A stretch of DNA of 64,000 nt from positions 434,001 through 498,000 of the forward strand of contig CANLVN010000002.1 in NCBI GenBank assembly GCA_947494705.1, read 5' to 3'. The notes under the pieces were generated by a model. The model saw nothing but the letters and a program-made list of their open reading frames with translations. It did not search any database and had not been told where the DNA came from. Below are positions 6,079 to 35,518 of this stretch, piece after piece. Every line of letters starts with the position of its first letter. Within the stretch, counting starts at the first letter, position 1. The stretch is from an uncultured Erythrobacter sp. (GTDB lineage: Bacteria > Pseudomonadota > Alphaproteobacteria > Sphingomonadales > Sphingomonadaceae). The translations under genes were made by a program, and so were the position numbers.

Positions 6079-6599
6079 TGGCTGACGAGAACAACAGCTC
6101 CGTTTCCGATCTCTCGGATCTCAAGGACATCGCCGGTGACGCACCCGCTGCGGACGCCGCCGAAATCGCCCAGAACCCTGCAGCGCCTCTGCGCGAGCAG
6201 GAACTCGACGCCCAGGGCCGTGCCTATGCAACCGGCCGCCGCAAGGATGCTACCGCGCGCGTCTGGCTGAAGCCGGGCACCGGCAAGGTCACCGTCAACG
6301 GCAAGGACCAGGAAGTGTATTTCGCGCGTCCGACCCTGCGTCTGATCATCAACCAGCCCTTCGCAATCACCGAGCGTGAAGGCCAGTACGACATCGTCGC
6401 AACGGTTCGCGGCGGCGGTCTTTCGGGACAGGCTGGTGCGGTCAAGCACGGTATCAGCCAGGCTCTGACCAAGTACGAGCCCGCCCTGCGCAGCACCGTC
6501 AAGGCGGCTGGCTTCCTCACCCGCGACAGCCGCGTGGTGGAGCGCAAGAAGTATGGCCGTGCCAAGGCACGTCGCAGCTTCCAGTTCTCGAAGCGCTGA
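6078..6599 (+). CDS. rpsI: 30S ribosomal protein S9 with acidic N-terminal extension
   Basis: S9 contacts P-site tRNA through its C-terminal tail, which here ends in the invariant FSKR. The family core runs from [14 protein letters not shown] (about residue 49) through the [19 protein letters not shown] loop. Total length is 173 residues against about 130 in E. coli; the surplus is an acidic, serine/alanine-rich N-terminal extension of about 45 residues seen in many alphaproteobacteria. It forms the usual rplM-rpsI operon and is followed by a strong terminator. Confidence 0.97.
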
Positions 6600-15747: not shown

Positions 15748-15796
15748 CGCGCATTCCCCGATTCGCAATGGTTAACGGGCTGAATGGGGAATAAGT

Positions 15797-16303
15797 GTGG
15801 CAGGCAGTAACGAGGCTTCGGTCGAAGAAATCCTCGAATCGATCAAGAAGGTAATCGCCCGCGACAGCCGCGATGTGGGCGCAAATGCCTCCACGCGCAA
15901 AAGCACCCCGGCCAAATCGGCTCAGGCAGATGAGGAAGAGCAAGTCGAAGACGAAGTGCTCGACCTGTCCGAGATGGAGCTTTCCGAAGTGGTCGAGTTC
16001 GACGAGGACTCGGGCGAGGACGACTCTTACGAAGAGAGCGCGAGCGAAGAGGAAGAAGAAGACGCCCCTCTGCTGGCTGAGAACATCCGCGGTGCGATGC
16101 AGGACAATCTCGCCGCGCTCGCCATGCTCGCTGAACCGGGTGCACGGCCTCAGATCGTGCGTTCGGGTGAAACTTCGCTCGAAGGTCTGACTCGCGAATT
16201 GCTTCGACCAATGCTTGCCGAATGGCTCGACAAGAATTTGCCCGGCATGGTCGAAAAGATGGTGCAGGCGGAAATCGCACGAATCGCGGGCAAGCGCGGC
16301 TAG
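15797..16303 (+). CDS. DUF2497/PopZ-like polar organizing protein
   Basis: This 168-residue protein has the three-part build of PopZ, the alphaproteobacterial polar scaffold that captures ParB-parS and cell-cycle proteins. It has an N-terminal helix (ASVEEILESIKKVIA, residues 7-21) and a long Glu/Asp-rich linker (about 40-95). A C-terminal oligomerisation region follows (TRELLRPMLAEWLDKNLPGM and VQAEIARIAGKRG). The start is GTG 15797 with GGGGA upstream. It follows tolC by 49 bp. A functional link with the parABS genes about 15 kb away is inferred, not shown. Confidence 0.8.
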   Translation: MAGSNEASVEEILESIKKVIARDSRDVGANASTRKSTPAKSAQADEEEQVEDEVLDLSEMELSEVVEFDEDSGEDDSYEESASEEEEEDAPLLAENIRGAMQDNLAALAMLAEPGARPQIVRSGETSLEGLTRELLRPMLAEWLDKNLPGMVEKMVQAEIARIAGKRG

Positions 16304-16363
16304 AAGCTGCTTATTGGCGCTTGCCGGTTGACGCGAGCGCTTCGCAACCTGACTTAGACGCGC

Positions 16364-16759
16364 ATGAGCGATCAGGACCTATTGGCCGCACAGACGGCTT
16401 TGGCGAAGAAGTACGAGAGCGTAGAGCGCCACATTTTTCTGTGCGCGCTATCCGAAAAGCAAAAGTGCTGCTCACGCGCCGAAGGCGAAGTTGCGTGGCA
16501 ATTTCTCAAGGACCGGCTCAAGGAGCTGGGTCTAGCCGGGCCCAAGCGCTCCGATACTCACCGCAAGGGAGCGGGTGGCGGCATCCAGCGGACGAAGGCG
16601 GACTGCCTGCAGATATGCTCCGCCGGACCGATCGCGGTCGTGTGGCCTGAGGGCGTCTGGTATCACTCCTGTTCACCGCAAGTGCTCGAGCGGATTATCC
16701 AGGAACATCTGATCGGTGGGAATCCAGTGGCGGAATACCGGCTTTCGCCGCCTGCCTAG
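16364..16759 (+). CDS. Thioredoxin-like [2Fe-2S] ferredoxin
   Basis: This 131-residue protein fits the thioredoxin-fold [2Fe-2S] ferredoxin family (as in NuoE/HoxE C-termini and Shethna-type proteins). The likely cluster cysteines are in [12 protein letters not shown] (residues about 26-37) and [13 protein letters not shown] (about 79-91). The closing [19 protein letters not shown] segment is typical. It probably carries electrons; the partner is unknown. It converges with the next minus-strand gene, overlapping it by four bases. Confidence 0.82.
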
Positions 16760-17079
16760 TCGCCGTCCTTGCTGGACCACAATTCGTCGCGGCTTGGCAA
16801 ACGGTTGTCGACCGATTCGTCATGACCCGTGCCGTTCGAAAGAAAAACCAGCCCCATCAAACCGCCGCCCAGCAGCATCGTGAAGCTGATCCCAAGCGCG
16901 ACCGCTATGTAGAAATGCACCGATATTGCGCCATTAAAGGCATAAAGCAGCCCCACGGCCAAAAGGACCGTGGCCACAGTAACGGCCATCAACAGGCGCA
17001 TGATCTTGCGAAAACGTGCCCACGCGTGAGCGGCGTTTTCGGGATCATCCAAAGGCGATTTCTTGACCACGGGCACCAC
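16756..17079 (-). CDS. Two-helix membrane protein, function unknown
   Basis: This 107-residue protein has membrane helices at about residues 28-47 and 56-80 and charged termini. It is not recognised. The start is GTG at 17079 (two GTG codons in tandem). It converges with the ferredoxin gene and diverges from the CBS-domain gene, leaving 130 bp for both promoters. Confidence 0.6.
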
Positions 17080-17209
17080 ATGCGGATCGCTTCGTGGTTT
17101 TGCAATGGGTAACCGGGCCGAGGCGGGATGAACCGGCGTAGGTTAGCGAGAAGATTCGCCTTTTCCTCAAATTGGTGGCAGTTTTCTTTTCGGAGAGAGG
17201 AGATCTGCA

Positions 17210-17638
17210 ATGACCATCGCCCGCATCATCGAGGACCGCGATCCATCTGACATTATTTCCTGCGATGTCTCGACCCCGGTAAGCGAGGCCGTGGCTATGC
17301 TGTCCGGCAAGCGGATCGGGGCGCTCCCGGTGATGAATGGAGGCCAAGTCGCCGGAATCGTTTCCGAGCGCGACATAATCTACTGCCTTGCGGATCGCGG
17401 TCAGGATGCGCTCGATCTGACGGTCGGCGACCTCATGACAGCGCCTGCGATCACCGTGGAACCGGGCACCCGCATAGACGACGCACTCGCGCTGATGACC
17501 AAGCGCCGTTTTCGCCACTTCCCGGTTATCGATCGCGGCAGGATCGTCGCGTTCATCTCGATCGGCGATCTCGTGAAGCACAAGGTCGCGGAAATCGAAA
17601 ACGAGGCGGCCGCATTGCGCGATTACATCAAGATGTAA
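17210..17638 (+). CDS. Tandem CBS-domain protein
   Basis: This 142-residue protein is made of two CBS motifs and little else (about residues 8-62 and 75-130). Each repeat has the expected pattern: GALPVMNGGQVAGIVSERDI and HFPVIDRGRIVAFISIGDLV. Stand-alone CBS pairs bind adenine nucleotides and can regulate enzymes or channels; the partner here is unknown. GGAG lies about ten bases before the ATG. erpA follows after 44 bp on the same strand. Confidence 0.88.
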   Translation: MTIARIIEDRDPSDIISCDVSTPVSEAVAMLSGKRIGALPVMNGGQVAGIVSERDIIYCLADRGQDALDLTVGDLMTAPAITVEPGTRIDDALALMTKRRFRHFPVIDRGRIVAFISIGDLVKHKVAEIENEAAALRDYIKM

Positions 17639-17682
17639 GCGTCTCCCTTGAGGATCGCCCTCGTGACGCTTAGATCATAGGC

Positions 17683-18012
17683 ATGGCAGACACTCTCACA
17701 CTGACCCCCGCCGCAGCAAAGCGCGTTGCATGGATCGCCGACAAGCAGGCGAAGCCAGCCGTTCTGCGACTTTCGGTCGAAGGGGGCGGGTGCTCGGGCT
17801 TTCAGTACAAGTTCGACCTCGCCGAAGCGCCGGATGGCGATGACAAGGTCAGCGAAACCGATGGAGTGAAGCTGGTCGTCGACCCTGTAAGCCTCGATCT
17901 TGTCAGCGGCAGCGTCGTCGATTTCGTCGAATCGCTGGGCGGCGCGGCGTTCCGTGTCGAAAACCCCAATGCCGCTGCCGGTTGTGGCTGCGGATCGAGT
18001 TTCGGGATTTAG
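17683..18012 (+). CDS. erpA: Iron-sulfur cluster insertion protein, ErpA/IscA family
   Basis: A-type carrier of 109 residues that delivers Fe-S clusters to target proteins. The three conserved cysteines are in GGGCSGFQY (residue about 37) and the C-terminal GCGCGSSF. The pattern LVVDPVSLDLVSGSVVDF is typical of the family. It lies between the CBS gene and xthA; these are probably independent functions sharing a transcript. Confidence 0.92.
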   Translation: MADTLTLTPAAAKRVAWIADKQAKPAVLRLSVEGGGCSGFQYKFDLAEAPDGDDKVSETDGVKLVVDPVSLDLVSGSVVDFVESLGGAAFRVENPNAAAGCGCGSSFGI

Positions 18013-18049
18013 GTTTTACCCGCAAGGCGATCTGGGGCAGTAAGCCCGC

Positions 18050-18856
18050 ATGAAAATCGCCACCTTCAACATCAACGGTATCAAGGCACGCCTCCCTCGC
18101 CTCAAGGAATGGCTCGAGGAAACACGCCCTGCTGTCGCTTGCCTGCAAGAGATCAAGAGCCAGGATGACGGATTTCCCGCCGACGAGTTCGAAGCAATCG
18201 GATATCAGGCGATCTGGCACGGTCAGAAGGCCTTTAACGGCGTCGCGGTGCTGGCAGATACAAATGCGGGGTACTCGATAGAAGAGGTCCAACGTGGACT
18301 GGGCATCGATGGTCCCAAGGACGGTGAGGGCGAACAGGCCCGCTATCTCGAAGTCGATGCACTGAAGGACGGCGGCAGGACCCGGATCGTTTGCATTTAC
18401 CTGCCCAACGGCAACCCGCAACCGGGGCCCAAATTCGACTACAAACTCGCCTGGATGGAGAAACTGCGCGCCCGCATGGGAGCGATCTGGGCCGAAGAAG
18501 TGCCAGCCGCGGTGCTCGGCGACTACAATGTCATTCCTGAAGACACGGACGTTTATTCGGTCAAGGCAATGGCATCCGATGCGCTGATGCAACCCGAATC
18601 GCGCGCTGCCTACAATCGCCTGCTTGCCGATGGATGGACCGACGCGGTCCATACTCTCAATCCACGTGGGGGAGTATGGACCTATTGGGATTACCAGGCC
18701 GGGGCGTGGCAGCGCGATCATGGCTTCCGCATCGACCACATCCTGCTCTCCCCCGAACTGGCGGACAAGTTGCAAGCCGTTGGCGTCGACCGCGAGCATC
18801 GCGGGCGGGAAAAAGCGAGCGATCACGCCCCGACCTGGGCGATACTGGCTGACTGA
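18050..18856 (+). CDS. xthA: Exodeoxyribonuclease III
   Basis: AP endonuclease/3'-exonuclease of base-excision repair, 268 residues. Catalytic motifs of the ExoIII/APE1 fold are in place: FNINGIKARLPRL, CLQEIKSQD with the metal-binding Glu, VCIYLPNGNP, GDYNVIPEDTDVY, and DHAPTWAIL at the C-terminus with the catalytic Asp-His pair. ATG 18050 is the natural start of the fold. It is followed by a bidirectional terminator shared with the convergent cell-wall hydrolase gene. Confidence 0.95.
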   Translation: MKIATFNINGIKARLPRLKEWLEETRPAVACLQEIKSQDDGFPADEFEAIGYQAIWHGQKAFNGVAVLADTNAGYSIEEVQRGLGIDGPKDGEGEQARYLEVDALKDGGRTRIVCIYLPNGNPQPGPKFDYKLAWMEKLRARMGAIWAEEVPAAVLGDYNVIPEDTDVYSVKAMASDALMQPESRAAYNRLLADGWTDAVHTLNPRGGVWTYWDYQAGAWQRDHGFRIDHILLSPELADKLQAVGVDREHRGREKASDHAPTWAILAD

Positions 18857-18870
18857 CCCCACAAACGAAA

Positions 18871-18894
18871 ACCCCCGCCGGAATGGGCGGGGGT
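18871..18894. terminator. Bidirectional terminator between xthA and the SleB-like gene
   Basis: ACCCCCGCC (18871-18879) pairs perfectly with GGCGGGGGT (18886-18894) around a six-base loop. The T-rich tail is better on the minus strand (TTTCGTTT), where it would end the hydrolase transcript. On the plus strand it closes xthA. Confidence 0.8.
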
Positions 18895-18920
18895 CTCGAA
18901 GTTTGGCTTAGCCTATCGGA

Positions 18921-19601
18921 TCAACGATAGAAGACATGCGTGTCGATCTGGGCAAGGCGCGTCTTGCGACGGCTCCAGCTCGGACGGACGTAGTTCGCGT
19001 GGAAGTAGACTGCGTCGGATGCTTCCGATTCCCACAGCCCCTCATGCGCGATCTTCGCGACAGCCTTGGCACGGGTCCAGGCGGCGGAAGACGAGCGGAT
19101 CTGCGGCATGCGGCCACCGCGCACGAAGGAGAATTGCGCGCGCTGGTACACGACGCCGCAGTAGCTCGCCGGCCAGCGGCGATCTTCGGCGCGGTTGATG
19201 ACGACCTGCGCCACTGCCAGCTGTCCCGAAAGCGGTTCGCCGCGCGATTCAAAATAGACCGCACCGGCAAGGCAGCGCATTTGTTCGGTCAGTTCGGTAT
19301 CGTCGCCGACCTTGGAAACCAGTTCGTGAAGCGATCCGGCCTGAAAATCTTTGTCGTTTGCGTCATCTTCGCTCGTTTCGGGGAGCGTCTGGACGACTTC
19401 TTCGGAAACGAAGACCGGCTGCTCTGGCACAATCTCGACCGATTGGCTGTTATCGGCCTCGGGGGCCTTCTGGATAACGGACCCGGGAGCTGCATCGATT
19501 GCATCCTGGGCGAAAGCTTCGACGCCATCGGCGCTCGAGAGGCTGATTGCGGCTGTCGCGATGACTGCGGCAGCACTCAGGGAGTAAGTCTTACGACCCA
19601 T
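18921..19601 (-). CDS. SleB-type cell wall hydrolase
   Basis: This 226-residue secreted peptidoglycan hydrolase (Hydrolase_2 family) has a signal peptide or anchor at residues 1-31. A low-complexity acidic stretch follows, then the catalytic domain from about residue 108: CLAGAVYFESRGEPLSGQ with the catalytic glutamate, VAQVVINRAEDRRWPA, and AVYFHANYVRPSW near the end. Such SleB/CwlJ homologs in alphaproteobacteria are likely lytic transglycosylases for wall remodelling. It is the left-most member of the long minus-strand run that ends at the putative origin. Confidence 0.88.
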   Translation of the reverse strand: MGRKTYSLSAAAVIATAAISLSSADGVEAFAQDAIDAAPGSVIQKAPEADNSQSVEIVPEQPVFVSEEVVQTLPETSEDDANDKDFQAGSLHELVSKVGDDTELTEQMRCLAGAVYFESRGEPLSGQLAVAQVVINRAEDRRWPASYCGVVYQRAQFSFVRGGRMPQIRSSSAAWTRAKAVAKIAHEGLWESEASDAVYFHANYVRPSWSRRKTRLAQIDTHVFYR

Positions 19602-19803
19602 TGCGTGTTCTTCTTGTGCGGTGAGCGAGCTCCGACGCAGGGTGGGATCTTTTGCACTTTTTGTGCGTAGGAGAGTTAGATTCCAAGTGGCCTGCCGGCT
19701 GCCCCCCGTCTGCGTGCCATCCCGTCTCGGCCGAATTGCCGCCCCGATGGCCTGCGCATTTGGAAGCTCGCGGCCAAATAGTCACAAATGAAACTACGTC
19801 AAG

Positions 19804-20139
19804 CTAACGCGGCATAAGTGCGATGAAGCGTTCTGGATCTGCGATGTCGATCTCAAGAATCCAGATATCGGGATCCTGGCGCCGCCGACGGTCGAGATAC
19901 TCTTGGAATTCATAAGGCTTTTCAGGGTCTTGAGCCTTACTGACCACAAACGGTCTCGTGCCGTCCAGCTGCGGCATCCTTTCGTAAAGGGTCGCATTTC
20001 CGCCGCGGAACACGTGGACGATCAACACTGTTCCCGCGTCGCGCTCTCCCTTGCCAAGAACCATCGCACTGCCGCCATTCGATTCGGCGAGACGGATCAT
20101 GCTCGCGATTTCGAGGTGCGTGGGAAGACGCTCGCTCAA
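19804..20139 (-). CDS. DUF1491 family protein
   Basis: This small protein of about 111 residues is of unknown function and restricted mainly to alphaproteobacteria. The family frame is visible: RLPTHLEIASMIRLAES, then GTVLIVHVF, then EFQEYLDRRRRQDPDIWILEI, and a C-terminal PERFIALMPR. There is no in-frame ATG before the conserved RLPTHL, so TTG 20139 is taken as the start; CTG 20160 is a weaker alternative. It begins 13 bp after the thioesterase stop and is probably coupled to it. Downstream 202 bp up to the hydrolase gene hold nothing I recognise. Confidence 0.75.
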   Translation of the reverse strand: MSERLPTHLEIASMIRLAESNGGSAMVLGKGERDAGTVLIVHVFRGGNATLYERMPQLDGTRPFVVSKAQDPEKPYEFQEYLDRRRRQDPDIWILEIDIADPERFIALMPR

Positions 20140-20152
20140 GAAAGGGCCTGTT

Positions 20153-20608
20153 TCATTCAGAGTATCCCGGCAGGCCAGAGAGCGCGATATGCGAGCGCAT
20201 GAAAGTCCCGGTGCCGCGCCCGATCTCATCCCCCTCGGCATCGATCAGGCGCGATTCGGCGACGAAGACGCGCCGCTTGCCACTCACCCATGTCCCCTCT
20301 GCTACCACTTCGCCGGCACGGACGGGCTTTGTGAAATGGAGGTTGAACCCGGTCGTCAACAAGAAGCGATCGCTGACCAAGGTGTTCGCCGCATAGAACG
20401 CCGCATCGTCGAGCATCTTGAAATAGATCGTACCATGCGCGGCGCCAGCTGCGTGGTAGACGTCTTCGCTGACAGTGAAGACGAGGCGCGCGCGCCCTTC
20501 GCCCGGTATGGTCAGCTTCGAATTGAACAGCGAATTGACCGGCGCCGACTGGTACAACCGTTCGAGCGCGCGGTGGTGCAGTTCGGCTCCTGCTGCTTCA
20601 GGCGGCAT
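20153..20608 (-). CDS. PaaI-like hotdog-fold thioesterase
   Basis: This 151-residue hotdog-fold protein probably hydrolyses an acyl- or aryl-CoA thioester. The core reads AAGAAHGTIYFKMLDDAAFY (the long helix, with HG and the following D in the active-site region), then TTGFNLHFTKPVRAGEVVAEG, as in PaaI/DUF4442 proteins. The start overlaps the ptsN stop by 11 bp, and DUF1491 follows, so the three are cotranscribed. The natural substrate is unknown. Confidence 0.85.
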   Translation of the reverse strand: MPPEAAGAELHHRALERLYQSAPVNSLFNSKLTIPGEGRARLVFTVSEDVYHAAGAAHGTIYFKMLDDAAFYAANTLVSDRFLLTTGFNLHFTKPVRAGEVVAEGTWVSGKRRVFVAESRLIDAEGDEIGRGTGTFMRSHIALSGLPGYSE

Positions 20609-21059
20609 CGCGCAGGAATTGGTTGGTCAGCACCCCAAACAGCGCATCTGCATCGGGTGCATCGCTGAGCGCCGAAAGCCTCGCCTCGTCGCGAACCATG
20701 CGCGAAACCGCTGCGAGCGCGTGAAGATGGGTCGCGCCAGCATTCTCGGGCGAGACAAGTCCGAAGACCAGCGAGACTGGGGTGGCATCGGCCGCCTTGA
20801 AATCGACCGGCTTTGACAGGCGAAGCACCGCCATCGTGGGTCGGGTGACACCCGAATTGCGGCAATGGGGAATAGCTACCCCGCGACCGAAGCCAGTGCT
20901 GCCCAGCAACTCACGCTGCTCGAGCCCTTCTAGTATCTCGTCGGCATCGAGACGATAAACGTCCGCGTAAAGACGCGAGAGGTGTTGGAGAACCTGTTGG
21001 GCACTATTCACCTGCGCAAAAGCGACAGCGTGCGGTACCACAGAAATATTCACATCCAT
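20598..21059 (-). CDS. ptsN: Nitrogen PTS enzyme IIA (PtsN)
   Basis: EIIA-Ntr is the terminal phospho-acceptor of the nitrogen PTS and controls targets by its phosphorylation state. The 153-residue protein has the phosphorylated histidine in GVAIPHCRNSGV (about residue 69) after EQRELLGSTGFGRG, the family context. ATG 21059 gives the usual length. A longer frame upstream is not supported. It follows hpf by 170 bp on the same strand, the common hpf-ptsN order downstream of rpoN, though rpoN itself is absent here. Confidence 0.92.
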   Translation of the reverse strand: MDVNISVVPHAVAFAQVNSAQQVLQHLSRLYADVYRLDADEILEGLEQRELLGSTGFGRGVAIPHCRNSGVTRPTMAVLRLSKPVDFKAADATPVSLVFGLVSPENAGATHLHALAAVSRMVRDEARLSALSDAPDADALFGVLTNQFLRDAA

Positions 21060-21229
21060 TTCGAACTCTTGATCCCGAGCAAGAATTGTCGATCGATTAA
21101 AGGGCCACTGCCCCGGCAAAAGCAAATGTAAAGCCGCAACGATGCAGCTTGCAGGCGCCTTATATGGTTTGAGCCTCCCCCGGATTTGCTGACATAACGG
21201 TCTGGGCCGTTCGCCGCGTCACCTCGGCC

Positions 21230-21793
21230 TTAATGCGGTTCAACCCAGCCGATCGAACCGTCCGCGCGGCGATAGACCATATTATGCCGTCCAGTGCCAG
21301 CATTTTTGAAAAATAGTGCCGGAGTATCGCGCAAATCGAGCATCATCACCGCGTCGGCAACACTGCTTTCCGGGATGTCGACTTTTGTTTCCGCAATGAC
21401 GGGAGGTGCGTCCGCAGCGATCTCTTCCTCAGGCTCTTCGGCGGCGAAAATAGTATAGGCAGCCTCCTCTTCCGCGCGCACGTGGGAGGCCCGTTCGTGG
21501 CGGTCGTTCAGGCGGCGCTTGTAGCGGCGCAGCTGCTTCTCGATCCTGCTCGCGGCTTCGTCGAGCGCGTGATGCGCGTCATGCGCGGTACCCTGCGACT
21601 TGAGGATCAGCCCTTGTGTCACGTGGGTCACGATATGGCAGGAAAATGCACCGCCCGCCGCTTTGCCGAAGGTGACATGCGAAGACAGCGCCCGTTCGAA
21701 ATGTTTGTCGACAATGGCACCCAAACGCTCGGAAGCGTGCTCCTGAAGTGCTGCGCCGGTTTCCACCTGGTGGCCGGAAATTCGGATATCCAT
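21230..21793 (-). CDS. hpf: Ribosome hibernation promoting factor, long form
   Basis: Binds the 30S decoding site and dimerises 70S ribosomes into inactive 100S particles in stationary phase. The 187-residue protein has the N-terminal S30AE domain (residues 1-105, MDIRISGHQVETGAAL and the basic helix EKQLRRYKRRLNDRH) and an acidic linker. The C-terminal dimerisation domain includes the segment RHNMVYRRADGSIGWVE. ATG 21793 is preceded by AAAGGAG. It lies 22 bp after dnaQ, so it may be read from the same transcript. Confidence 0.95.
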   Translation of the reverse strand: MDIRISGHQVETGAALQEHASERLGAIVDKHFERALSSHVTFGKAAGGAFSCHIVTHVTQGLILKSQGTAHDAHHALDEAASRIEKQLRRYKRRLNDRHERASHVRAEEEAAYTIFAAEEPEEEIAADAPPVIAETKVDIPESSVADAVMMLDLRDTPALFFKNAGTGRHNMVYRRADGSIGWVEPH

Positions 21794-21815
21794 CGCATTC
21801 ACTCCTTTACTGGTT

Positions 21816-22529
21816 TCAACGTGTCCAGATTGCGCCTTCGATCTTCGCGACAAACTCGGCATGGCGCTGCAGCTCCATCGCCGACGCGCTATGCGGCCGC
21901 GGTTCGCGGCGTGGGCGATCGGCCTTATCGCGGAATGCGAGGACATTGTCGCGCTGCGCAACTTCATCGTTCAACCCTGGTGCCGCAGAGCCCGTGGCCG
22001 CAAGTTCCAACCCGATCTGGCGCCCGCCGGTCAACTCGACATAGACCTGCGCGAGCAATTCCGCATCGAGAAGTGCGCCGTGCTTCACGCGGTGACTGCG
22101 ATCGACGCCATAACGCGAGCACAGGGCGTCGAGCGATAGCTTGGCGCCGGGATGCTTCTTGCGTGCCAGGGCAACAGTGTCGACCATGCGGTCCATCGCG
22201 ATCGGTGGGCGACCGATGCGTTCAAGCTCAGCATTCAGAAAGCCGAAATCGAAGCCGGCATTGTGCGCAACCAATGGCGCATCGCCAATGAACTCCAGCA
22301 GTTCATCGACCGTCTCGGCAAATTTCGGCTTGGTCTCGAGGAAAGAGATCGACAGACCATGCACCGCCTCCGCTGCGGCGGGCATGTCGCGTTCGGGATT
22401 GTAATAAGCGTGGTAGCTGTTTCCGGTCTCGACCCGACCGACCATTTCGACACAACCGATTTCGACCATGCGGTCCCCGGTCTTGGGGTCGAGTCCGGTC
22501 GTTTCGGTGTCGAAGACAATCTCACGCAT
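21816..22529 (-). CDS. dnaQ: DNA polymerase III epsilon subunit (proofreading exonuclease)
   Basis: 3'-5' proofreading exonuclease of the replicative polymerase, 237 residues. The DEDDh motifs are complete: FDTETTG (residues 6-12), HNAGFDFGFLN, and HGALLDAELLAQVYVEL with the catalytic histidine. It follows coaE by 48 bp in the ori-proximal minus-strand cluster, the place it holds in many alphaproteobacteria. Confidence 0.95.
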   Translation of the reverse strand: MREIVFDTETTGLDPKTGDRMVEIGCVEMVGRVETGNSYHAYYNPERDMPAAAEAVHGLSISFLETKPKFAETVDELLEFIGDAPLVAHNAGFDFGFLNAELERIGRPPIAMDRMVDTVALARKKHPGAKLSLDALCSRYGVDRSHRVKHGALLDAELLAQVYVELTGGRQIGLELAATGSAAPGLNDEVAQRDNVLAFRDKADRPRREPRPHSASAMELQRHAEFVAKIEGAIWTR

Positions 22530-22577
22530 TTCGCGGACTATTCACCGATGCGCGGCCAAGCGCAAGAGGCGCCGCGA

Positions 22578-23177
22578 TCAATCGCGTGCAGCGAGGAGCG
22601 TTTCCACAAGCTCGCGCACCTGCTTCTCGGTTTCCTCGAGCGAAGTACCGGTGTCGATGACATGGTCGGCGCGCTCACGTTTCTCGGTATCCGGGGTCTG
22701 CAAACCCAGGATGTGTTCGAATTTCTCAACGGTCATACCCGGCCTTGCGAGAACCCGTTCCCGCTGAGTTGCCTCCGGAGCGGATACAACCACCACGACG
22801 TCGACGGCCTCGTGACCTCCACGCTCGAACAGGAGAGGGATATCGAACAGCACGAGCGCCTTGTCGGCGTTTTCGGAAAGGAAGGCAGCGCGTCTGGCAC
22901 CGACGGCCGGATGGACGATCGCTTCGAGACGGCCGAGCTTTTCCTTGTCGGCAAAAACCAGCTTGCCCAAGGCGTCGCGATCAACCCCGTCGGGGCCGGT
23001 CGATCCGGGAAAGGCCGCTTCGATCGCATCGATCAATTCGCCGCCGGGCCCCTGCATCGCACGCACCTGAGCGTCGGCATCGAATACCGGCACGCCGGCG
23101 CGTTCGAACATGGCCGCGACCGTCGACTTTCCCATGCCAATTGATCCGGTGAGGCCGATGATGGTTGGACGAGTCAT
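22578..23177 (-). CDS. coaE: Dephospho-CoA kinase
   Basis: Last step of coenzyme A synthesis, phosphorylating the 3'-hydroxyl of dephospho-CoA with ATP. The 199-residue protein has the P-loop GLTGSIGMGKSTV (residues 7-19), FDADAQVRAM with the catalytic Asp, and DIPLLFERG, all standard. Its ATG overlaps the TGA of aroE by four bases, so the two are translationally coupled. Confidence 0.95.
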   Translation of the reverse strand: MTRPTIIGLTGSIGMGKSTVAAMFERAGVPVFDADAQVRAMQGPGGELIDAIEAAFPGSTGPDGVDRDALGKLVFADKEKLGRLEAIVHPAVGARRAAFLSENADKALVLFDIPLLFERGGHEAVDVVVVVSAPEATQRERVLARPGMTVEKFEHILGLQTPDTEKRERADHVIDTGTSLEETEKQVRELVETLLAARD

Positions 23178-24028
23178 GCGCTGAGAATTCCCATGAGTTC
23201 GGCATCATGTTGGCGCGGTGGAGATTGGCCGAAGAATTTCTCGAAGGCGATGGCAGCCTGCCCGATCAGCATGGCGAAACCATCAATTGCCCGATGCCCC
23301 CTCTCTCGCGCGGATTTCAGGAAAGGCGTGTCGATGGGGCTTGTGACGATATCGTAGGCGATACTGCCGGGCGGTGCATGGCTCCAGTCAAAGGCGAGCG
23401 GCATATTTCCAACCATGCCCAAAGATGTCGCGTTGACGACGAGGTCGAGACAACCTTCGCGGTCGTCGAAGGCGAAATCGGTTGGTTCGGCGAAATGCGC
23501 GATATGGACCGCGTGATGCTCTCCCTTCGGGGCCAGTTCGTCGAGCAGGGCGCGCGCCTTCGCAGTATCGCGCCCGGCAACGACGAGGGTGAAGCCTTCC
23601 TGCGCGAGTGCAAAGATGATCGCGCGCGCAGCGCCGCCCGTTCCCAAGATGCGAGCCATGCGAAAATAGTGTGTCTGGGCAAGCTCTTCGCGCAGCGGCT
23701 CAAGAAACCCTGCGGCATCGGTGTTGGTGCCTGCCAAGCCCCGGTCGGGGCCCGGATAGATGGTGTTCACCGCGCCGATCCGCGATGCGACATCGTCGAC
23801 ATCTGCGAGATGCTCGATCACCGCTTGTTTGTGCGGCATTGTCACGTTGCATCCGCGCCACTCAGGGTCCCGACCTTGCCGCGCCAGATATCCCTCAAGC
23901 CCCTGGCCCAAGACATGCTGGGCCTTGTAATCGGCGTCGATCCCCAGCTTCTTCAACCAAAAGCCGTGGATCAGAGGGGATTTCGACTGCGCAATCGGGT
24001 CGCCGATCACGTGAGCTACGGCGGTCAT
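23174..24028 (-). CDS. aroE: Shikimate dehydrogenase
   Basis: NADPH-dependent reduction of 3-dehydroshikimate in aromatic amino-acid synthesis. The 284-residue protein has the substrate site QSKSPLIHGFW (residues 13-23) and the catalytic lysine in NVTMPHKQAV. The NADP loop GTGGAARAIIFAL and the NATSLGM segment follow. ATG 24028 was chosen because it starts directly before the conserved VIGDPIAQSKSP; the longer frame upstream overlaps maf. It overlaps both maf and coaE by four bases. Confidence 0.94.
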   Translation of the reverse strand: MTAVAHVIGDPIAQSKSPLIHGFWLKKLGIDADYKAQHVLGQGLEGYLARQGRDPEWRGCNVTMPHKQAVIEHLADVDDVASRIGAVNTIYPGPDRGLAGTNTDAAGFLEPLREELAQTHYFRMARILGTGGAARAIIFALAQEGFTLVVAGRDTAKARALLDELAPKGEHHAVHIAHFAEPTDFAFDDREGCLDLVVNATSLGMVGNMPLAFDWSHAPPGSIAYDIVTSPIDTPFLKSARERGHRAIDGFAMLIGQAAIAFEKFFGQSPPRQHDAELMGILSA

Positions 24029-24621
24029 GCCTGGAGGACGCCCTGTTCCCGGAGTGCGCCGAGCAGCGGAAGCAGCGGCATGCCGAGAACTGTAAACTGG
24101 TCGCCTTCTATCCGTTCGAACAATTGCACGCCCATGGCTTCGATCCGGAAGCACCCGACAGTGTAGCCCACCTGAGGCCATTCGACCTCGAGATAATCCT
24201 CGATGAACGCATCGGACAATTCGCGCACATGCAAAAGCGCGATCTCGGCGTGGCTCCATTCGCAGGTGTCGTCACGTACAAGCGCGGCGGCGCTGTGGAG
24301 CTCCATCACCTTGCCCGAAAAGAAGGCGAGATGTTCGCGTGCATTCTCGCGCGAAGTCGGTTTGTCGAACCTGCGGCCCTCGACACAGATAAGTGAGTCG
24401 CTGCCGAGGACCAGCGCGCCCTTGTGCTCGCGGGCGACCGCGGCAGCCTTTGCTACACTAAGCGCCTCGGCGACTTCCGAAGGTTTGGCGTCGGTCAGGC
24501 TGTCTTCGATTGCGCGCTCGTCGAGATCGGCGGGAACGGATTCATAAGAGACACCTGCCGCATCGAGCATTTCGCGGCGCGAAGCGGACTTGGAAGCGAG
24601 GACGAGGGATGGCGCGGTCAT
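24025..24621 (-). CDS. maf: Maf-family nucleotide pyrophosphatase
   Basis: House-cleaning enzyme that hydrolyses non-canonical nucleoside triphosphates. The 198-residue protein has the signature LASKSASRREML near the N-terminus, VLGSDSLICVEGR in the middle, and VGCFRIEAMGVQLFERIEGD, typical of the Maf fold. Start and stop overlap ppsR and aroE by four bases each, so it is embedded in a coupled operon. Confidence 0.93.
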   Translation of the reverse strand: MTAPSLVLASKSASRREMLDAAGVSYESVPADLDERAIEDSLTDAKPSEVAEALSVAKAAAVAREHKGALVLGSDSLICVEGRRFDKPTSRENAREHLAFFSGKVMELHSAAALVRDDTCEWSHAEIALLHVRELSDAFIEDYLEVEWPQVGYTVGCFRIEAMGVQLFERIEGDQFTVLGMPLLPLLGALREQGVLQA

Positions 24622-25463
24622 ATCGGTTTTGAAATCCCGTCGACCGGACGGTCCTTGCGTTGACGCTCCTGCACCAACCGGATCACGGCGGCCGCGCTTT
24701 CCTCGATCGAGCGGCGGGTGACATCGATCACTGGCCAGCCATTATCGGCGAACATCCGGCGCGCATATTGCAGCTCGCTCTTTACCTTCTCACCGTCGAC
24801 ATAGGAAGTTTCGGTCCCCTCGTTGAGGGAGAGCAATCGGTTGCGGCGGATCTGGACAAGCCGTTCGGGCGCAGTGGTCAACCCGACGACCAGTGGATGG
24901 CGCAAGTCGTAGAGCGCATCGGGCGGCGGGCTTTCAGGCACGATGGGAATGTTCGCGACCTTGTAGCCGCGATTGGCGAGATAGATCGACGTGGGTGTTT
25001 TCGAGCTGCGCGAAACCCCTGCGAGGACGACATCGGCCTCTTCCCAATCCTCGTGAGCGATGCCGTCGTCATGCGCGATCGTGTACTGGATAGCATCGAC
25101 GCGCTTGAAATAGTCGGCATCCATCGTGTGCTGGCGTCCGGGTCGACCGTGCGCCTCCTGTCCCAGCTGAGATTCCAGGGCAGCGGTCACCTGGTCGAGA
25201 ACCGGCACGGCGGGCAGGCCGAGATGACGACAATGTTCTTCCAGCCGCGAGCGGGTGTCGGGATTGACGAGGGTGAACAGCACCAGCCCGGGATTTTCGG
25301 CAAGGTCGGGGACAATCCGGTCGAGATGCTGACGCGAACGCACCATTGGCCAGAAATGACGGCTGACACTGGGATCGTCGAACTGCGCAAGCGCAGCTTT
25401 CGCAATCATTTCAAGCGTTTCACCGGTTGAATCCGAGACGAGATGCAGATTCAGTCGGTTCAT
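24618..25463 (-). CDS. ppsR: PEP synthase/PPDK regulatory protein (DUF299)
   Basis: Bifunctional kinase/pyrophosphorylase that switches pyruvate phosphate dikinase or PEP synthase off and on. The 281-residue protein has LHLVSDSTGETLEMIAKAAL at the N-terminus, the GVSRSSKTPTSIYLANRG phosphate-binding loop, and the C-terminal DVTRRSIEESAAAVI. ATG 25463 is chosen because family members begin just before the LHLVSDSTG segment. It is the first gene of the ppsR-maf-aroE-coaE series and borders the putative origin. DUF299 next to hemE across the origin is the arrangement known in Caulobacter and Rickettsia. Confidence 0.92.
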   Translation of the reverse strand: MNRLNLHLVSDSTGETLEMIAKAALAQFDDPSVSRHFWPMVRSRQHLDRIVPDLAENPGLVLFTLVNPDTRSRLEEHCRHLGLPAVPVLDQVTAALESQLGQEAHGRPGRQHTMDADYFKRVDAIQYTIAHDDGIAHEDWEEADVVLAGVSRSSKTPTSIYLANRGYKVANIPIVPESPPPDALYDLRHPLVVGLTTAPERLVQIRRNRLLSLNEGTETSYVDGEKVKSELQYARRMFADNGWPVIDVTRRSIEESAAAVIRLVQERQRKDRPVDGISKPI

Positions 25464-25726
25464 GGATCGATTCGCGCAGGCTCGCTTGGGACTTGTGGAC
25501 AGGCAGGGGCATAAACCACGGGAGAGAACGGTCGACAAGCATGGGAGTGTTTTTCCTCCTCGCTATCAGCCCTGTGGTGCGGATTTCTTTCGACACGGGA
25601 CAACAGATATAGACAGGCTGGGAAGATCGGGGACAAGTCCCGCTTGACCGCGCAGCGTGGCGGAGTCGCAGAGCAGAAAAATTGCTTGCCTGAGCGGCAA
25701 AATCGGGCAGGGCCCGGTAATTCCCG

Positions 25727-25735
25727 CTATCCACA
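25727..25735 (+). promoter_or_regulatory. DnaA box candidate
   Basis: CTATCCACA matches the consensus TTATCCACA at eight of nine positions. It sits about 16 bp before the AT-rich segment, the usual order of box and unwinding element. Confidence 0.5.
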
Positions 25736-25750
25736 GGGCCAACAGACTCC

Positions 25751-25790
25751 ATCAATCCTTTTAAAATTACATTATATTTGATTAGAGGAA
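25751..25790. promoter_or_regulatory. AT-rich segment: unwinding element and/or hemE promoter, with CtrA-like site
   Basis: Thirty-two of 40 bases are A or T in an otherwise GC-rich chromosome. Inside, TTAA (25761-25764), seven bases, then TTAT (25772-25775) is one base short of the CtrA consensus TTAA-N7-TTAA. The segment ends in AGAGGAA, the ribosome site of hemE. Confidence 0.45.
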
Positions 25791-25794
25791 CGCC

Positions 25795-26814
25795 ATGCCC
25801 GGTCCGCTGCTCGATACCCTCAAAGGGTCCACCCAGAATGTCGCTCCCGTATGGCTCATGCGCCAGGCGGGGCGTTATCTCCCTGAATACAGGGAACTTC
25901 GCGCTGAAAAAGGCGGCTTTCTCGAGCTTGTTTATGACAGCGAGGCCGCGGCCGAGGTCACGGTGCAGCCGATCAGGCGTTTCGGGTTCGACGGGGCGAT
26001 CCTGTTCTCGGATATCCTGATCGTACCGCATGCGATGGGGCAGGGGCTGGAATTCCTTGCAGGCGAAGGGCCCAAGCTCAGCCCGACCCTGCTCGAAACC
26101 GAACTCGATAGCTTCGTCCACGCCTATGAGCGCTTCGATCCGGTTTACGAAACCGTCAGACTGACCAGAGCGCAGATCGCCGATACGGTTACCATGCTGG
26201 GCTTTGCAGGTTCGCCATGGACGGTTGCGACCTACATGATCGCCGGCGAAGGCTCGAAGGATCAGGGGCCGGCGCGCCTTCTGGCCTATCGCGATCCATC
26301 CCGCATGCAGGCAATTTGTGACGCGATTGCCGAGGTTTCCATCGAGTATCTGCGCGGACAGATCGATGCCGGTGCCGAAGCGGTGCAGTTGTTCGACAGC
26401 TGGGCAGGCAGCCTTGCTCCGGACGAATTCGAGCGCTGGGTCGTTGCCCCCAATGCGAAGATCGTCGCCGCCATCAAGCAATCGCACCCGGATGTGCCGG
26501 TGATCGGCTTTCCGAAGGGTGCCGGCGCGAAACTTCCGGTCTATGCTCGAGAAACAGGCGTGGACGCGGTTGGTCTCGATGAAACGCTTGATCCGGCATG
26601 GGCCAATTCGGTTCTACCTGACGGAATGCCGGTTCAGGGCAATCTCGATCCGCTTCTTGTCGAGGCAGGGGGCGACGCGCTTCCCAAGAGGGTCGAGACC
26701 ATCCTGGAGGCATTCAAGGGGCGTCCGCACGTGTTCAATCTCGGTCATGGCATCGGTCAATTCACCCCGATCGAGCATGTCGAGCAATTGCTCCGGGCGG
26801 TGAGGGGCGAATAA
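25795..26814 (+). CDS. hemE: Uroporphyrinogen decarboxylase
   Basis: Decarboxylates the four acetate side chains of uroporphyrinogen III to give coproporphyrinogen III in heme synthesis. The 339-residue protein has the signature PVWLMRQAGRYLPEYRELR (residues about 17-35), the catalytic-site aspartate in ILFSDILIVP, and FAGSPWTVATYMI. The C-terminal NLGHGIGQFTPIEHVE is also typical. AGAGGAA precedes the ATG. It overlaps hemJ by one base (TAATG). Confidence 0.96.
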   Translation: MPGPLLDTLKGSTQNVAPVWLMRQAGRYLPEYRELRAEKGGFLELVYDSEAAAEVTVQPIRRFGFDGAILFSDILIVPHAMGQGLEFLAGEGPKLSPTLLETELDSFVHAYERFDPVYETVRLTRAQIADTVTMLGFAGSPWTVATYMIAGEGSKDQGPARLLAYRDPSRMQAICDAIAEVSIEYLRGQIDAGAEAVQLFDSWAGSLAPDEFERWVVAPNAKIVAAIKQSHPDVPVIGFPKGAGAKLPVYARETGVDAVGLDETLDPAWANSVLPDGMPVQGNLDPLLVEAGGDALPKRVETILEAFKGRPHVFNLGHGIGQFTPIEHVEQLLRAVRGE

Positions 26815-29712: not shown

Positions 29713-30411
29713 TCAGCCCAGATGCTTGGCAAAGAATTCCGCGCTGCGCGCGTCTGCTTTGGTCGCGGCAACTTCGTCGCGTCGCTTGCCGACTTCCGTG
29801 GCGAAGCCGTGATCGAGGCCTTCATAATCATACAGCGTAACCTTGGGGTGGTCATCGAGCCCCTTGTGCATCGCAGCCTGCGTTTCCTTGTCGACAAAGC
29901 CATCCTCGGTTGGAATGTGGAGCATGAGGGGATTGGCAATGGCTTCCTTTTCATCGAGCAAGCCATCGATCCCGACACCGTAATATCCAACGGTTGCGTC
30001 GATGTCCGTTCGCGAGGCGGTCATATAGGCGAGGCGCCCACCAAGGCAGTAACCCACCGCACCGACTTTCGCGACATTCTCCTGCTCGCGCACGAAATCG
30101 ATCGTCGCCTGGATATCGCGGATACCCTCATCCTGATCGAACTTGTTCATCAGATCGAGCGCGCGTTCGAATTCGGGCTCGATATCGGGGTCGAGCTCGA
30201 CACCCGGTTCAAGCTGCCAGAACAAGTCCGGAGCGATGGCCAGATAGCCATCCTCGGCCAACTTGTCGCATTTACGGCGGATGCCCGCATTCACACCGAA
30301 GATCTCTTGGATGACAACGATCGCCGCTTTGGGCGTATCAGCCGGGCGCGCGACATAGGCCTTGAAATTCGCGTCCTTGTCGAGGTTCTGGATGGAAATC
30401 GTATCGGTCAT
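29713..30411 (-). CDS. Dienelactone hydrolase family protein
   Basis: This 232-residue alpha/beta hydrolase has the DLH triad: nucleophilic cysteine in GAVGYCLGGRLAY (about residue 124), aspartate in IPTEDGFVD and histidine in LDHGFA near residue 206. IQEIFGVNAGIR near the N-terminus is the family oxyanion region. Canonical members open dienelactones in chloroaromatic breakdown, but most homologs act on unknown esters. No aromatic-degradation genes accompany it. With the NTF2-like gene it forms the only minus-strand interruption of the run right of the origin. Confidence 0.88.
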   Translation of the reverse strand: MTDTISIQNLDKDANFKAYVARPADTPKAAIVVIQEIFGVNAGIRRKCDKLAEDGYLAIAPDLFWQLEPGVELDPDIEPEFERALDLMNKFDQDEGIRDIQATIDFVREQENVAKVGAVGYCLGGRLAYMTASRTDIDATVGYYGVGIDGLLDEKEAIANPLMLHIPTEDGFVDKETQAAMHKGLDDHPKVTLYDYEGLDHGFATEVGKRRDEVAATKADARSAEFFAKHLG

Positions 30412-30548
30412 AGGGGCAAGTCTCCTGTTTCTGGCCCTGATTCGGGGTCAGGGTGTACTCAACAGGCCTAGCCATTGCGTGCAGGGTGGGGCAAACCCAA
30501 ATAAGCCAATACCGCGCAGCGACAGGACGGGAAGAGGGAGCAAGCCCA

Positions 30549-30824
30549 ATGAAGATCAACGTGGAAATCGACTGCACACCCGAAGAGGCGCGCAGCTTCT
30601 TGGGTTTGCCCGACGTGACGCCGGCGAACGAGCTCTATGTCGAGAACATAACCAAAGCGATGAGCGGGGTGAGCAATCCGGCGCAGTTGCAGGAATATGC
30701 GCAAGCCCTCGCGCCCATGGGTCAGATGGGTATGAAACTGTTCCAGAGCTTCGTTGAAGGCGGATTGCGCGCGGGCGCAGCAGCGACAGGCGGTGGATCG
30801 CGCAAGGCCGACAAGCCCGACTGA
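30549..30824 (+). CDS. DUF6489-like small protein
   Basis: This 91-residue acidic protein begins KINVEIDCTPEEARSFLGLPDV and ends in a Gly/Lys-rich tail. I believe it belongs to DUF6489, a family seen in sphingomonads and relatives, with no known function. ATG 30549 is preceded by GGGAG. Its stop is one base before the mnmE GTG start, so the two are translated together. Confidence 0.65.
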   Translation: MKINVEIDCTPEEARSFLGLPDVTPANELYVENITKAMSGVSNPAQLQEYAQALAPMGQMGMKLFQSFVEGGLRAGAAATGGGSRKADKPD

Positions 30825-32127: not shown

Positions 32128-32143
32128 TGTTTCACGTGAAACA
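32128..32143. promoter_or_regulatory. parS site 1
   Basis: TGTTTCACGTGAAACA is a perfect 16-bp palindrome identical to the canonical ParB-binding sequence. It lies in the mnmE-mnmG gap, about 2.6 kb before parA. Confidence 0.92.
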
Positions 32144-32182
32144 TCTTTGACCTCGCGCCGCGGAAGTCCTATTTGCCGGGCC

Positions 32183-34036
32183 ATGCAGAATTTCGATGTC
32201 CTTGTGATCGGCGGCGGGCATGCCGGTGTCGAGGCGGCGTGCGCCGCCGCGCGCATGGGTGCGCGCACCGGGCTTGTCAGTTTCGACCTCGAAGCGATCG
32301 GCGCTATGAGCTGCAACCCGGCGATCGGCGGGTTGGGCAAAGGTCATCTGGTCCGTGAGGTTGACGCTCTAGACGGCGTTATGGGCCGCGCAGCGGATGC
32401 CGGGGCCATCCATTATCGCATGCTCAACCGCTCGAAAGGGAGCGCCGTCTGGGGTCCGCGTGTCCAGGCTGACCGGGTGCTGTTCAAGGCCGAGGTCCAG
32501 CGGATCGTTCACGCGCAGGACAAGCTGACCCTGATCGAAGGCGAGGCTGCAGCGCTAGTTCTTTCCGGGGGTCGCGTCGCGGGGCTTGAGCTTGCCGACG
32601 GGATGCGATTGGATGCTGAGCGCGTGATCCTTTGCACCGGTACATTCCTCGGCGGAGTTCTTTTCAGGGGTGAGGAGCGGTTCGAGGGCGGCCGTGTCGG
32701 TGAGAACGCCGCCGCGCGCCTTGCCGAGCAATTGCGAGGGGCGGGCCTTCCGATGGCACGTCTAAAGACGGGCACTCCCCCCAGACTGGATGGGCGCACG
32801 ATCGATTGGGCGATGCTGGATGAGCAGGCTTCGGATAGTGAAAACTGGACGATGTCCCCGATGACAAATGCCCGCCGGAATCCTCAGATCTTTTGTGCAG
32901 TAACCCGAACAACTCAGGCATCGCACGATATTATTCGCGCAAATCTCCACCGCTCGCCGCTTTTTTCCGGCGCGATTGGAGCCGCCGGACCGCGCTATTG
33001 CCCCTCTATCGAGGACAAAATCCACCGCTTTGGCGACAGGGATGGACATCAGGTCTTCCTTGAGCCGGAGGGACTGGCAACGCATCTCGTCTATCCGAAC
33101 GGGATCAGTACCTCGCTTCCAGTCGACGTCCAGTTGGCGATGCTGCGCGCCATGCCGGGGTTGGATCACGTGGATATGGCGGTGCCTGGCTATGCGGTTG
33201 AGTATGACCACATCGATCCGCGAGCGCTGACGCCCGATCTTCAGTTGCGAGCGATACCCGGTCTCTATTGCGCTGGGCAGATCAATGGGACGACCGGTTA
33301 CGAGGAGGCCGCAGCGCAAGGCTTGATTGCAGGTCTTGAGGCAGCAGGCGCCGCCCTTGGCATGGCGACCCCGAAGCTCGACCGATCCAATTCGTACATC
33401 GCCGTCATGATCGACGATCTGACACTTCAAGGTGTGAGCGAACCCTATCGGATGCTCACATCGCGCGCCGAGTACCGCCTGCGGCTGCGCGCCAACAATG
33501 CAACGACGCGCCTCACCGGCTTGGGAGTATGTGCGGGCTGCGTTGGCGATAAGCGGCGCCAATGGTTCGAAAAGCGCAGTGTTTCACGTGAAACATTGTC
33601 CGAGGCACTCGCTCGTCGGGTTCATTCCCGCGAATTGGCTGATCACGGCATTGCGGTTCGCCGAGATGGTGGAGAGAAACCGATTGCTGAGTGGCTCCGC
33701 CATGATGGGATCACGTTGCAAACGCTCGACCGCTGGATCGGCGATGTTGCGGATACTGACCCGGCGTTGCTTGAGGAAATGGCCGAAGATGAAGCCTATG
33801 CCCCTTATCTTGCGCGGCAGGATGCCGAATTGCGCGATTTGAGGGCCAGTGAGGAATTACCCCTACCTCCGGACTTCCCTTACGATTCCGTACCCGGTCT
33901 CTCCAATGAAATGGTTGAACGCCTCTCCGCCGCTGCGCCATCCAGTCTCGCTGCGGCGGGCCGCGTGGCTGGGGTAACGCCTGCCGCTCTTTCGGCGTTG
34001 CTTGTGCATGCCCGCCGCTGGCAGCGTGCCGCGTGA
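32183..34036 (+). CDS. mnmG: tRNA uridine-5-carboxymethylaminomethyl modification enzyme MnmG
   Basis: FAD- and NADH-dependent partner of MnmE in U34 modification. The 617-residue protein begins with the dinucleotide loop [19 protein letters not shown] and continues with [22 protein letters not shown]. The cysteine-bearing YCPSIEDKI and [20 protein letters not shown] follow, all conserved. ATG 32183 fits the fold; an upstream in-frame start would run into the region beside parS 1. It holds parS site 2 inside its coding sequence and overlaps rsmG by four bases. Confidence 0.95.
33580..33595. promoter_or_regulatory. parS site 2, inside mnmG
   Basis: A second copy of TGTTTCACGTGAAACA lies within the mnmG coding sequence, where it is read as part of SVSRET. 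A perfect palindromic site inside a gene suggests selection for ParB binding. Confidence 0.92.
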
Positions 34037-34674
34037 AGGAATCGACACTGATCTCTGGCGAGGAAGAAGCGCGGGCCTATGTCGAGCGCTGGGCATCGGA
34101 TGATGCGATGTCAAAGCTCGACCGTTATGCCGCCATGCTTCTTCAAGAGAACGGGAAGCAGAACCTCATCAGCAAGCCCAGCGAGGCGAGCCTCTGGGAG
34201 CGCCATATCGCCGATAGCGCGCAGTTGCTTGAGCATGTTCCACGTGAAACATATGCGAGCGCAGCCCCCGGCCCATGGCTGGATCTGGGCACCGGCCCGG
34301 GCCTTCCGGGCCTGGTAATCGCAATCCTCTGCCCCACCATACCTGTGGTCCTAGTCGAATCTCGCGCTCGCAGGGTGGAGTTTCTGCAAAGCTGCGTCAC
34401 CGAACTCGGTCTCGATAACTGCGAGGTCATCGGACAGCGGCTGGAACGAACCAATCCGTTTGAATCATGGGTCATTTCGGCACGAGCGTTTGCTCCGTTA
34501 GAGAAACTCCTCCGTTTATCCGCACCCTTTTCCACAAAGCAAACACGCTACCTGTTGCCCAAAGGCCGCTCGGCAGCGCACGAATTGGAAGGGACGAAAC
34601 GGTCGATTCGGAAGATGTTCCACGTGAAACAGTCCTTGACCGACGCCGATGCGGGAATCATCGTGAGCCAATGA
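34033..34674 (+). CDS. rsmG: 16S rRNA 7-methylguanosine methyltransferase RsmG
   Basis: Methylates N7 of G527 in 16S rRNA using SAM. The 213-residue protein has [20 protein letters not shown], the SAM loop [17 protein letters not shown] (about residues 81-97) and [12 protein letters not shown], typical of GidB/RsmG. The start is GTG 34033, overlapping the TGA of mnmG. Two parS sites (3 and 4) lie in the coding sequence and are read as VPRET and MFHVKQ. Confidence 0.94.
34236..34251. promoter_or_regulatory. parS site 3, inside rsmG
   Basis: TGTTCCACGTGAAACA matches the canonical parS except for one base in the left arm; this variant is common in other chromosomes. Confidence 0.9.
34616..34631. 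promoter_or_regulatory. parS site 4, end of rsmG
   Basis: A second copy of TGTTCCACGTGAAACA lies 111 bp before the parA start, close enough that ParB bound here could also influence parAB transcription. Confidence 0.9.
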
Positions 34675-34741
34675 GTTCGCCGCAAAGCTTGCGAGCCGGG
34701 AAAACGCCCTCGATTTGCGAGGGAAAACAAGGAAATGCGCC

Positions 34742-35518
34742 ATGCTGACCATTGCTATTGCCAATCAGAAGGGCGGGGTGGGTAAGACCACGACAGCTAT
34801 CAACATGGCGACCGCCATGGCCGCCACGGGATGGCGAACATTGCTGATCGACCTCGATCCCCAAGGCAATGCTTCGACCGGACTTGGCGTCGATGCGAGC
34901 GAACGCGAGATGTCGAGCTACGATCTTCTCGTCGAACAGGCTCCGATCGAAGACACGGTCGTGCAAACCGGTATTCCGGGCCTCGAGATCGTTCCGGCAA
35001 CGGTGGATCTGAGTGGCGCCGAGGTCGAGCTTGTCTCGGTCGAAGAGCGCACGACACGGCTGAAAAGTGCTCTTGCAAGCCATGGGGGTCACGATGTCTG
35101 CTTCATCGACTGCCCGCCCTCGTTGGGGCTGCTTACACTCAACGCCCTGTGTGCGGCCGATACGCTCCTTGTGCCGCTGCAATGCGAGTTTTTCGCGCTT
35201 GAGGGGCTTAGCCAGCTGCTCAAGACCGTTGAGCAGGTTCAGCAGCGCCTCAATCCCTCTCTGGGCATCATCGGGGTCGTTCTGACGATGTTTGACCGGC
35301 GCAACCGGCTCACCGACGAGGTTTCCGAAGAGGTGCGCGATTGCTTGGGGTCTCTGGTGTTCGACACCGTGATCCCGCGTAATGTTCGCCTTTCCGAGGC
35401 GCCGAGCCACGGTCTGCCTGCACTTGTTTACGACCATTCGTGCCTTGGTAGCCGCGCCTATATTGCTCTTGCGCGCGAATTGATCGGTCGTTTTCCACCT
35501 GAAAGGCAGGCAGCATGA
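34742..35518 (+). CDS. parA: Chromosome partitioning ATPase ParA
   Basis: Walker-type ATPase that binds DNA nonspecifically and moves ParB-parS complexes apart. The 258-residue protein has the deviant Walker A motif ANQKGGVGKTTTAINMA (residues 6-22), LLIDLDPQGNASTGLG, and CFIDCPPSLGLLTLNAL. Without an N-terminal DNA-binding extension it is the chromosomal (type Ib-like) form. ATG 34742 starts directly before the conserved LTIAIANQKGG. It overlaps parB by four bases. Confidence 0.96.
   Translation: MLTIAIANQKGGVGKTTTAINMATAMAATGWRTLLIDLDPQGNASTGLGVDASEREMSSYDLLVEQAPIEDTVVQTGIPGLEIVPATVDLSGAEVELVSVEERTTRLKSALASHGGHDVCFIDCPPSLGLLTLNALCAADTLLVPLQCEFFALEGLSQLLKTVEQVQQRLNPSLGIIGVVLTMFDRRNRLTDEVSEEVRDCLGSLVFDTVIPRNVRLSEAPSHGLPALVYDHSCLGSRAYIALARELIGRFPPERQAA

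Follow-up and report, generated by a model that had tools for sequence, protein, structure and literature searches.

A probable chromosomal replication origin between ppsR and hemE in the draft genome of an Erythrobacter-like alphaproteobacterium

The stretch of DNA analysed here, which we call the window, is 64 kb long and corresponds to C2:434001-498000 of a 10-contig draft genome of 3,391,363 bases; positions without a contig prefix count from its first letter. Within it, a gap of 331 bp (25464-25794) separates ppsR, a DUF299 gene (COG1806) on the minus strand at 24618-25463 (PF03618, E 1.6e-95), from hemE on the plus strand at 25795-26814 (PF01208, E 2.1e-111). These Pfam matches confirm the two boundary genes named in a preliminary description of the locus, which had called the gap the longest in the window. 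That is not strictly so, since 30412-30753 measures 342 bp by ORF ends, a measure in which the start codons are uncertain. The strand pattern in that description was correct on both sides. To the left, between 18921 and 25463, all eight Pfam-named genes tested lie on the minus strand, including Maf, shikimate dehydrogenase, CoaE and a DnaQ-like exonuclease, and the automatic ORF list also places three short plus-strand ORFs there. To the right, the plus strand carries the genes for UPF0093 (HemJ), Rho, a BLUF protein, MnmE, GidA, GidB, ParA and ParB, and the one minus-strand exception named is a dienelactone-hydrolase-family gene at 29713-30411. Within the origin cluster, the BLUF blue-light-sensor gene (PF04940, 28808-29200) is flanked by rho and mnmE, and no counterpart to it was listed for the Erythrobacter sp. 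NAP1 stretch in an automatic gene comparison. No tRNAs were found in the window.

The arrangement is widely kept. Among the loci listed, ppsR and hemE form a divergent pair around a gap in 70 of 80, and the gap spans 291-536 bp by aligned ends; the gap counts exclude the other ten, for which ppsR was not matched at 1e-10, and at least two of these (L062 and L071) end short upstream of hemE. By Pfam and across these relatives, the gap therefore has the location of a hemE-type origin, between hemE and a DUF299/COG1806 gene. Among the matches listed, the nearest HemE proteins with a named source, at 88% identity, belong to Erythrobacter, strain NAP1 included.

A search of the gap with the DnaA box consensus TTATCCACA recovers both boxes of the preliminary description: CTATCCACA at 25727-25735, one mismatch away, and the weaker CTGTCCACA on the minus strand at 25494-25502, with two mismatches. 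Because six sites with at most one mismatch occur in the 64-kb window, the presence of one in 331 bp, taken alone, has a probability of only about 3%. It had been a worry that a single strong box is few for an origin, and there is indeed just one within one mismatch here, but five candidate boxes emerge once conservation of position is considered. We aligned 17 close rows, the window included, over the gap with 60 bases added on either side, and scored each 9-base block against TTATCCACA on both strands wherever at least 15 rows had letters, giving 852 blocks. The best block of all is box 5 (CTATCCACA, 25727-25735, plus strand), which matches 8 of 9 bases here, averages 7.47 and reaches at least 7 of 9 in 17 of 17 rows. 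Box 4 (25628-25636, minus strand) ranks second with a mean of 7.24; it matches only 6 of 9 here and reaches 8 in 7 of the 17 rows, so that some relatives have a one-mismatch box at this place. Third is box 1 (CTGTCCACA, 25494-25502, minus strand), with 7 of 9 here and a mean match of 7.06 of 9 over the 17 rows, followed by box 2 (CTTTCGACA, 25587-25595, plus strand; 6 of 9 here, mean 6.88) in fourth place and box 3 (ATATAGACA, 25607-25615, plus strand; 6 of 9 here, mean 6.65) in fifth, the last scoring at least 7 in 9 of 17 rows, some relatives again matching better than the window. Below these five, whose means run from 7.47 to 6.65, the sixth block falls to 5.88, and the overall mean is 2.19. 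With these five heading all 852 blocks, the most likely reading is an origin with five weak putative DnaA boxes, four of them hard to spot in this genome alone.

The same enrichment is seen more widely. A set of 50 gaps was made up of the window's and those of 49 loci selected by HemE identity (about 60% or more), a few of whose titles name no sphingomonad. DnaA boxes with at most one mismatch occur in 45 of the 50 gaps, 90 sites in total, while random stretches of the same length from the same loci averaged 4.5 sites, spread over 3.6 rows, with maxima of 11 and 7 over 20 draws. Another 21, more distant gaps hold 39 such sites in 15 rows, against control means of 3.65 sites and 2.4 rows.

Beyond box 5 lies the 40-bp stretch with 32 A/T that had been remarked on earlier. 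It was found again at 25751-25790 as the most AT-rich 40-mer of the window, and is a probable DNA unwinding element of the kind that hemE-type origins carry; in the 20 rows listed, the best 40-mer has 28-33 A/T and falls at about the same position. Three blocks stand out in the 17-row alignment, all given on the plus strand: GCATAAACCACGGGAG (25509-25524) and TCCACAGGGCCAACAGACTCC (25730-25750), in which no column has fewer than 15 of 17 rows in agreement, and GGTAATTCCC (25716-25725), which is invariant in 17 of 17. Of these, TCCACAGGGCCAACAGACTCC shares bases with box 5 and reaches up to the AT-rich stretch.

Several elements known from other origins were looked for and not found. The CtrA pair TTAA-N7-TTAA of the Caulobacter-type Cori is absent from the window's gap, and occurs in 1 of the 50 near gaps and 2 of the 21 distant ones. 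The exact sequence WATCAANNNNTTR, which we take to be the IHF consensus, is present in none of the 50 near gaps (the window's included) and in 4 of the 21 distant gaps; these are exact matches only, and degenerate sites may exist. DnaA-trios, the mark of the basal unwinding system, were sought as at least three trios within 16 bp after a DnaA box (as set out in the available part of PMC8287927), the strand reading and the mismatch limit being our own. In the window no such run lies within 16 bp after box 5, and a NAN-type run appears in 2 of the 17 close rows (L008 and L016). Over the 50 gaps, trio runs are not enriched relative to shuffles (NTN 11 against a mean of 24.4, NAN 24 against 26.2).

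To the right of the gap, a genome-wide search of the 3.39-Mb draft for the parS pattern with at most two mismatches returned four palindromic sites, and all four lie in the window at 32128-34631, that is, 6.3-8.8 kb from the gap. Those at 32128-32143 and 33580-33595 have no mismatch, and those at 34236-34251 and 34616-34631 have one each. They stand beside parA (34715-35518, plus strand, PF13614/PF01656) and parB (35515-36510, plus strand, PF02195, PF17762 and PF23552), and a control search with the reversed pattern found no site genome-wide. Near the end of gidB, two one-mismatch DnaA-like boxes, TTATCCGCA and TTTTCCACA, lie 12 bp apart at 34516-34536, not far from parS-like sites.

Strand polarity was scored on sampled stretches covering about one fifth of the draft genome, with the four contigs C7-C10 (305-1,498 bases) excluded from the skew and octamer tallies. 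The octamer GGGNAGGG, which we take to be the FtsK-orienting motif of E. coli, is used here only as a strand-biased word. On sampled C2 (n=54), its best single change of orientation falls between C2:448957 and 459705, which is 14957-25705 of the window, with 5 forward and 18 reverse octamers to the left and 24 forward and 7 reverse to the right. The gain of 8.66 lnL is just above the maximum of 8.58 in 1000 shuffles. Rightward of the change, the first forward octamer (25705) already falls within the gap, and across the window four reverse octamers lie left of the gap, with seven forward and one reverse (51489) in or right of it. The sampled octamers of C1 (2 forward, 34 reverse) and C3 (14 forward, 1 reverse) are biased in opposite directions, consistent with two replication arms; with C1 attached on the left and C3 on the right, a contig order that we infer, the arms would measure about 1.7 and 1.4-1.7 Mb. 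An octamer change on C1 near 0.4 Mb was considered and rejected, reverse octamers being present in stretches there.

GC skew is weak and gives a coarser picture. A skew minimum at the gap had been proposed as a check, and in the sampled stretches only part of that expectation holds: there is a coarse difference of sign across the gap, the 15 C2 stretches on its left averaging -0.0049 and the 15 on its right +0.0132 (Mann-Whitney p 0.034), but the local minimum is elsewhere. Over the 124 kb of C2:394001-518000, cumulative G-C skew reaches its lowest value at C2:418529, which is some 41 kb to the left. On C3 the skew is near zero. We rejected GC skew as a sharp locator of the origin, its minimum being flat over tens of kilobases.

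Erythrobacter sp. NAP1, a single scaffold of 3,265,065 bases sampled in the same way, allows both arms to be followed. Before 1.17 Mb, each of its 15 stretches has positive skew; from there to hemE, 19 of the 20 are negative; and beyond hemE five of the six are positive, the sixth lying directly beside the gap. The octamers, fitted for sites beyond 1.17 Mb only, change best at 2680286-2685539, 3-8 kb from the gap (the hemE start is near 2677045), and this position is favoured by 3.5 lnL over the octamer interval within which the gap falls; the opposite polarity change falls between the samples at 1.12 and 1.20 Mb. Cumulative skew over 2600001-2720000 reaches its minimum at 2711166, on the ppsR side of hemE and some 34 kb away from it. 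The change of polarity expected at a hemE-type origin is thus seen in the octamers, and GC skew is coarse, with local minima 34-41 kb off.

The preliminary description had named a skew minimum next to dnaA as an outcome that would speak against an origin at the gap. C2 also carries dnaA, about 400 kb right of the gap, with its domain at C2:859684-860166, and the samples around it (C2:760001-930000) show no change of polarity, with positive skew in six of six stretches and octamers 6 forward and 2 reverse. In NAP1, dnaA (2295593) is inside the negative arm, 380 kb from the hemE gap, and the sampled stretches around it show no change either. Of the six places in the genome where TTATCCACA occurs exactly, one is near dnaA, at C2:860992-861000, and possibly reflects dnaA autoregulation. 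As for ribosomal genes, the rplM-rpsI pair does point toward the gap, as had been objected; it is on the plus strand within 5416-6599, about 19 kb to the left, head-on to a leftward fork. Both rpoB (C2:700687, plus) and rplB (C3:488768, plus) are co-oriented with the forward polarity of their sampled arms, so that rplM-rpsI may be an exception to ribosomal co-direction, although three loci are a small sample. A search for 16S rRNA (RF00177), meant as a further orientation marker, gave no match in the genome, which is rated 100% complete; a control search was likewise empty in 5 of 14 genomes, and the missing match may reflect the search. For orientation, rplB and rpoB took its place.

Because the parS-like sites cluster within 9 kb of it, the octamers change at its edge, the samples around dnaA show no change and DnaA-like boxes are kept in position across relatives, we regard the gap at 25464-25794 as very probably the chromosomal oriC, of the hemE-DUF299 type known from Caulobacter and Rickettsia, in an Erythrobacter-like alphaproteobacterium. 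The origin call of the preliminary description is in this way upheld by the parS sites, the octamer polarity and boxes that hold their positions.

The best of the other explanations, and still an improbable one, is that the gap is conserved merely as a promoter region from which ppsR and hemE diverge, with the origin a few kilobases off in the same cluster. In the 17-row alignment CTTGAC at 25643-25648 is invariant, resembles part of a -35 element, reads toward hemE and may be a hemE promoter element. The gap, moreover, is 73% identical between the window and NAP1 (unrelated stretches average 53%), which places it only fourth among the 21 gaps compared, not singled out, some of the other "gaps" perhaps holding missed coding sequence; and the octamer change in NAP1 is offset from the gap by those 3-8 kb. 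Against this reading stand the boxes within one mismatch in 45 of 50 gaps, the five boxes kept in position, the AT-rich stretch that comes after box 5, and the first forward octamer falling inside the gap. It is less likely again, indeed very unlikely, that the conserved blocks, which are non-coding and upstream of hemE, represent a structured leader RNA or riboswitch of that gene, no Rfam family having matched in the window at gathering thresholds. An origin beside dnaA is hardly credible, since the exact box there is outweighed by the constant polarity of the samples around dnaA in both genomes and by the lack of any parS-like site near it.

The hemE-side origin is a type already known, and the origin in the window is a further example of it. 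The Cori of Caulobacter crescentus was identified experimentally at the hemE/DUF299 boundary, an arrangement that the preliminary description had named, and shares with the window the hemE and COG1806-DUF299 flanks, a 40-bp AT-rich region and five DnaA boxes; five sites for CtrA and one for IHF are also reported there (PMC1914354, as far as its available text goes), whereas the window's gap has neither a CtrA pair nor an exact IHF site. The boxes of Cori are of moderate and very weak affinity, much as those of the window are weak matches, and mutations that raise their affinity can reduce replication (available text of PMC4468827). Closer to the window, DoriC places the predicted origin of most Sphingomonadaceae next to hemE, and Sphingopyxis granuli TFA and the DoriC entries share the hemE-side location, the conserved cluster, conserved putative DnaA boxes and an unwinding element that is likewise putative (PMC4741004, in the part available). 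TFA belongs to another genus, and the five-box map and conserved blocks of the window were derived independently. In Novosphingobium sp. PP1Y the chromosome origin is likewise predicted beside hemE, with three DnaA boxes, but is described as also close to a DnaA gene (PMC4059872, in the part available), while the dnaA of the window's genome is some 400 kb away. With the Bacillus-type basal unwinding system, the window shares the layout of a box (box 5), GGGCC and then the AT-rich stretch; that system has DnaA-trios (PMC8287927, in the part available), and the window lacks a run of three after box 5.

From this layout, a sequence of events at the origin can be proposed. DnaA-ATP would occupy the five weak, position-conserved boxes over about 240 bp, and the complex would nucleate at box 5 (25727-25735) and open the adjacent AT-rich stretch (25751-25790). 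Helicase would then load at the opened stretch and forks would depart in both directions, after which ParB bound to the four parS-like sites to the right of the gap would segregate the new origins. More tentatively, and with the odds rather against it, the origin of this lineage might be opened without DnaA-trios, by way of GGTAATTCCC and then of box 5 within TCCACAGGGCCAACAGACTCC where it abuts the AT-rich stretch, while GCATAAACCACGGGAG might be bound by some other regulator that replaces CtrA and IHF.

These results place the origin within a draft genome. They also indicate that counting boxes understates origins of this kind, whose boxes are singly weak yet kept in position, and the conserved blocks offer targets for learning how opening and its timing are achieved at a low-affinity origin in which neither CtrA nor IHF sites are recognisable.
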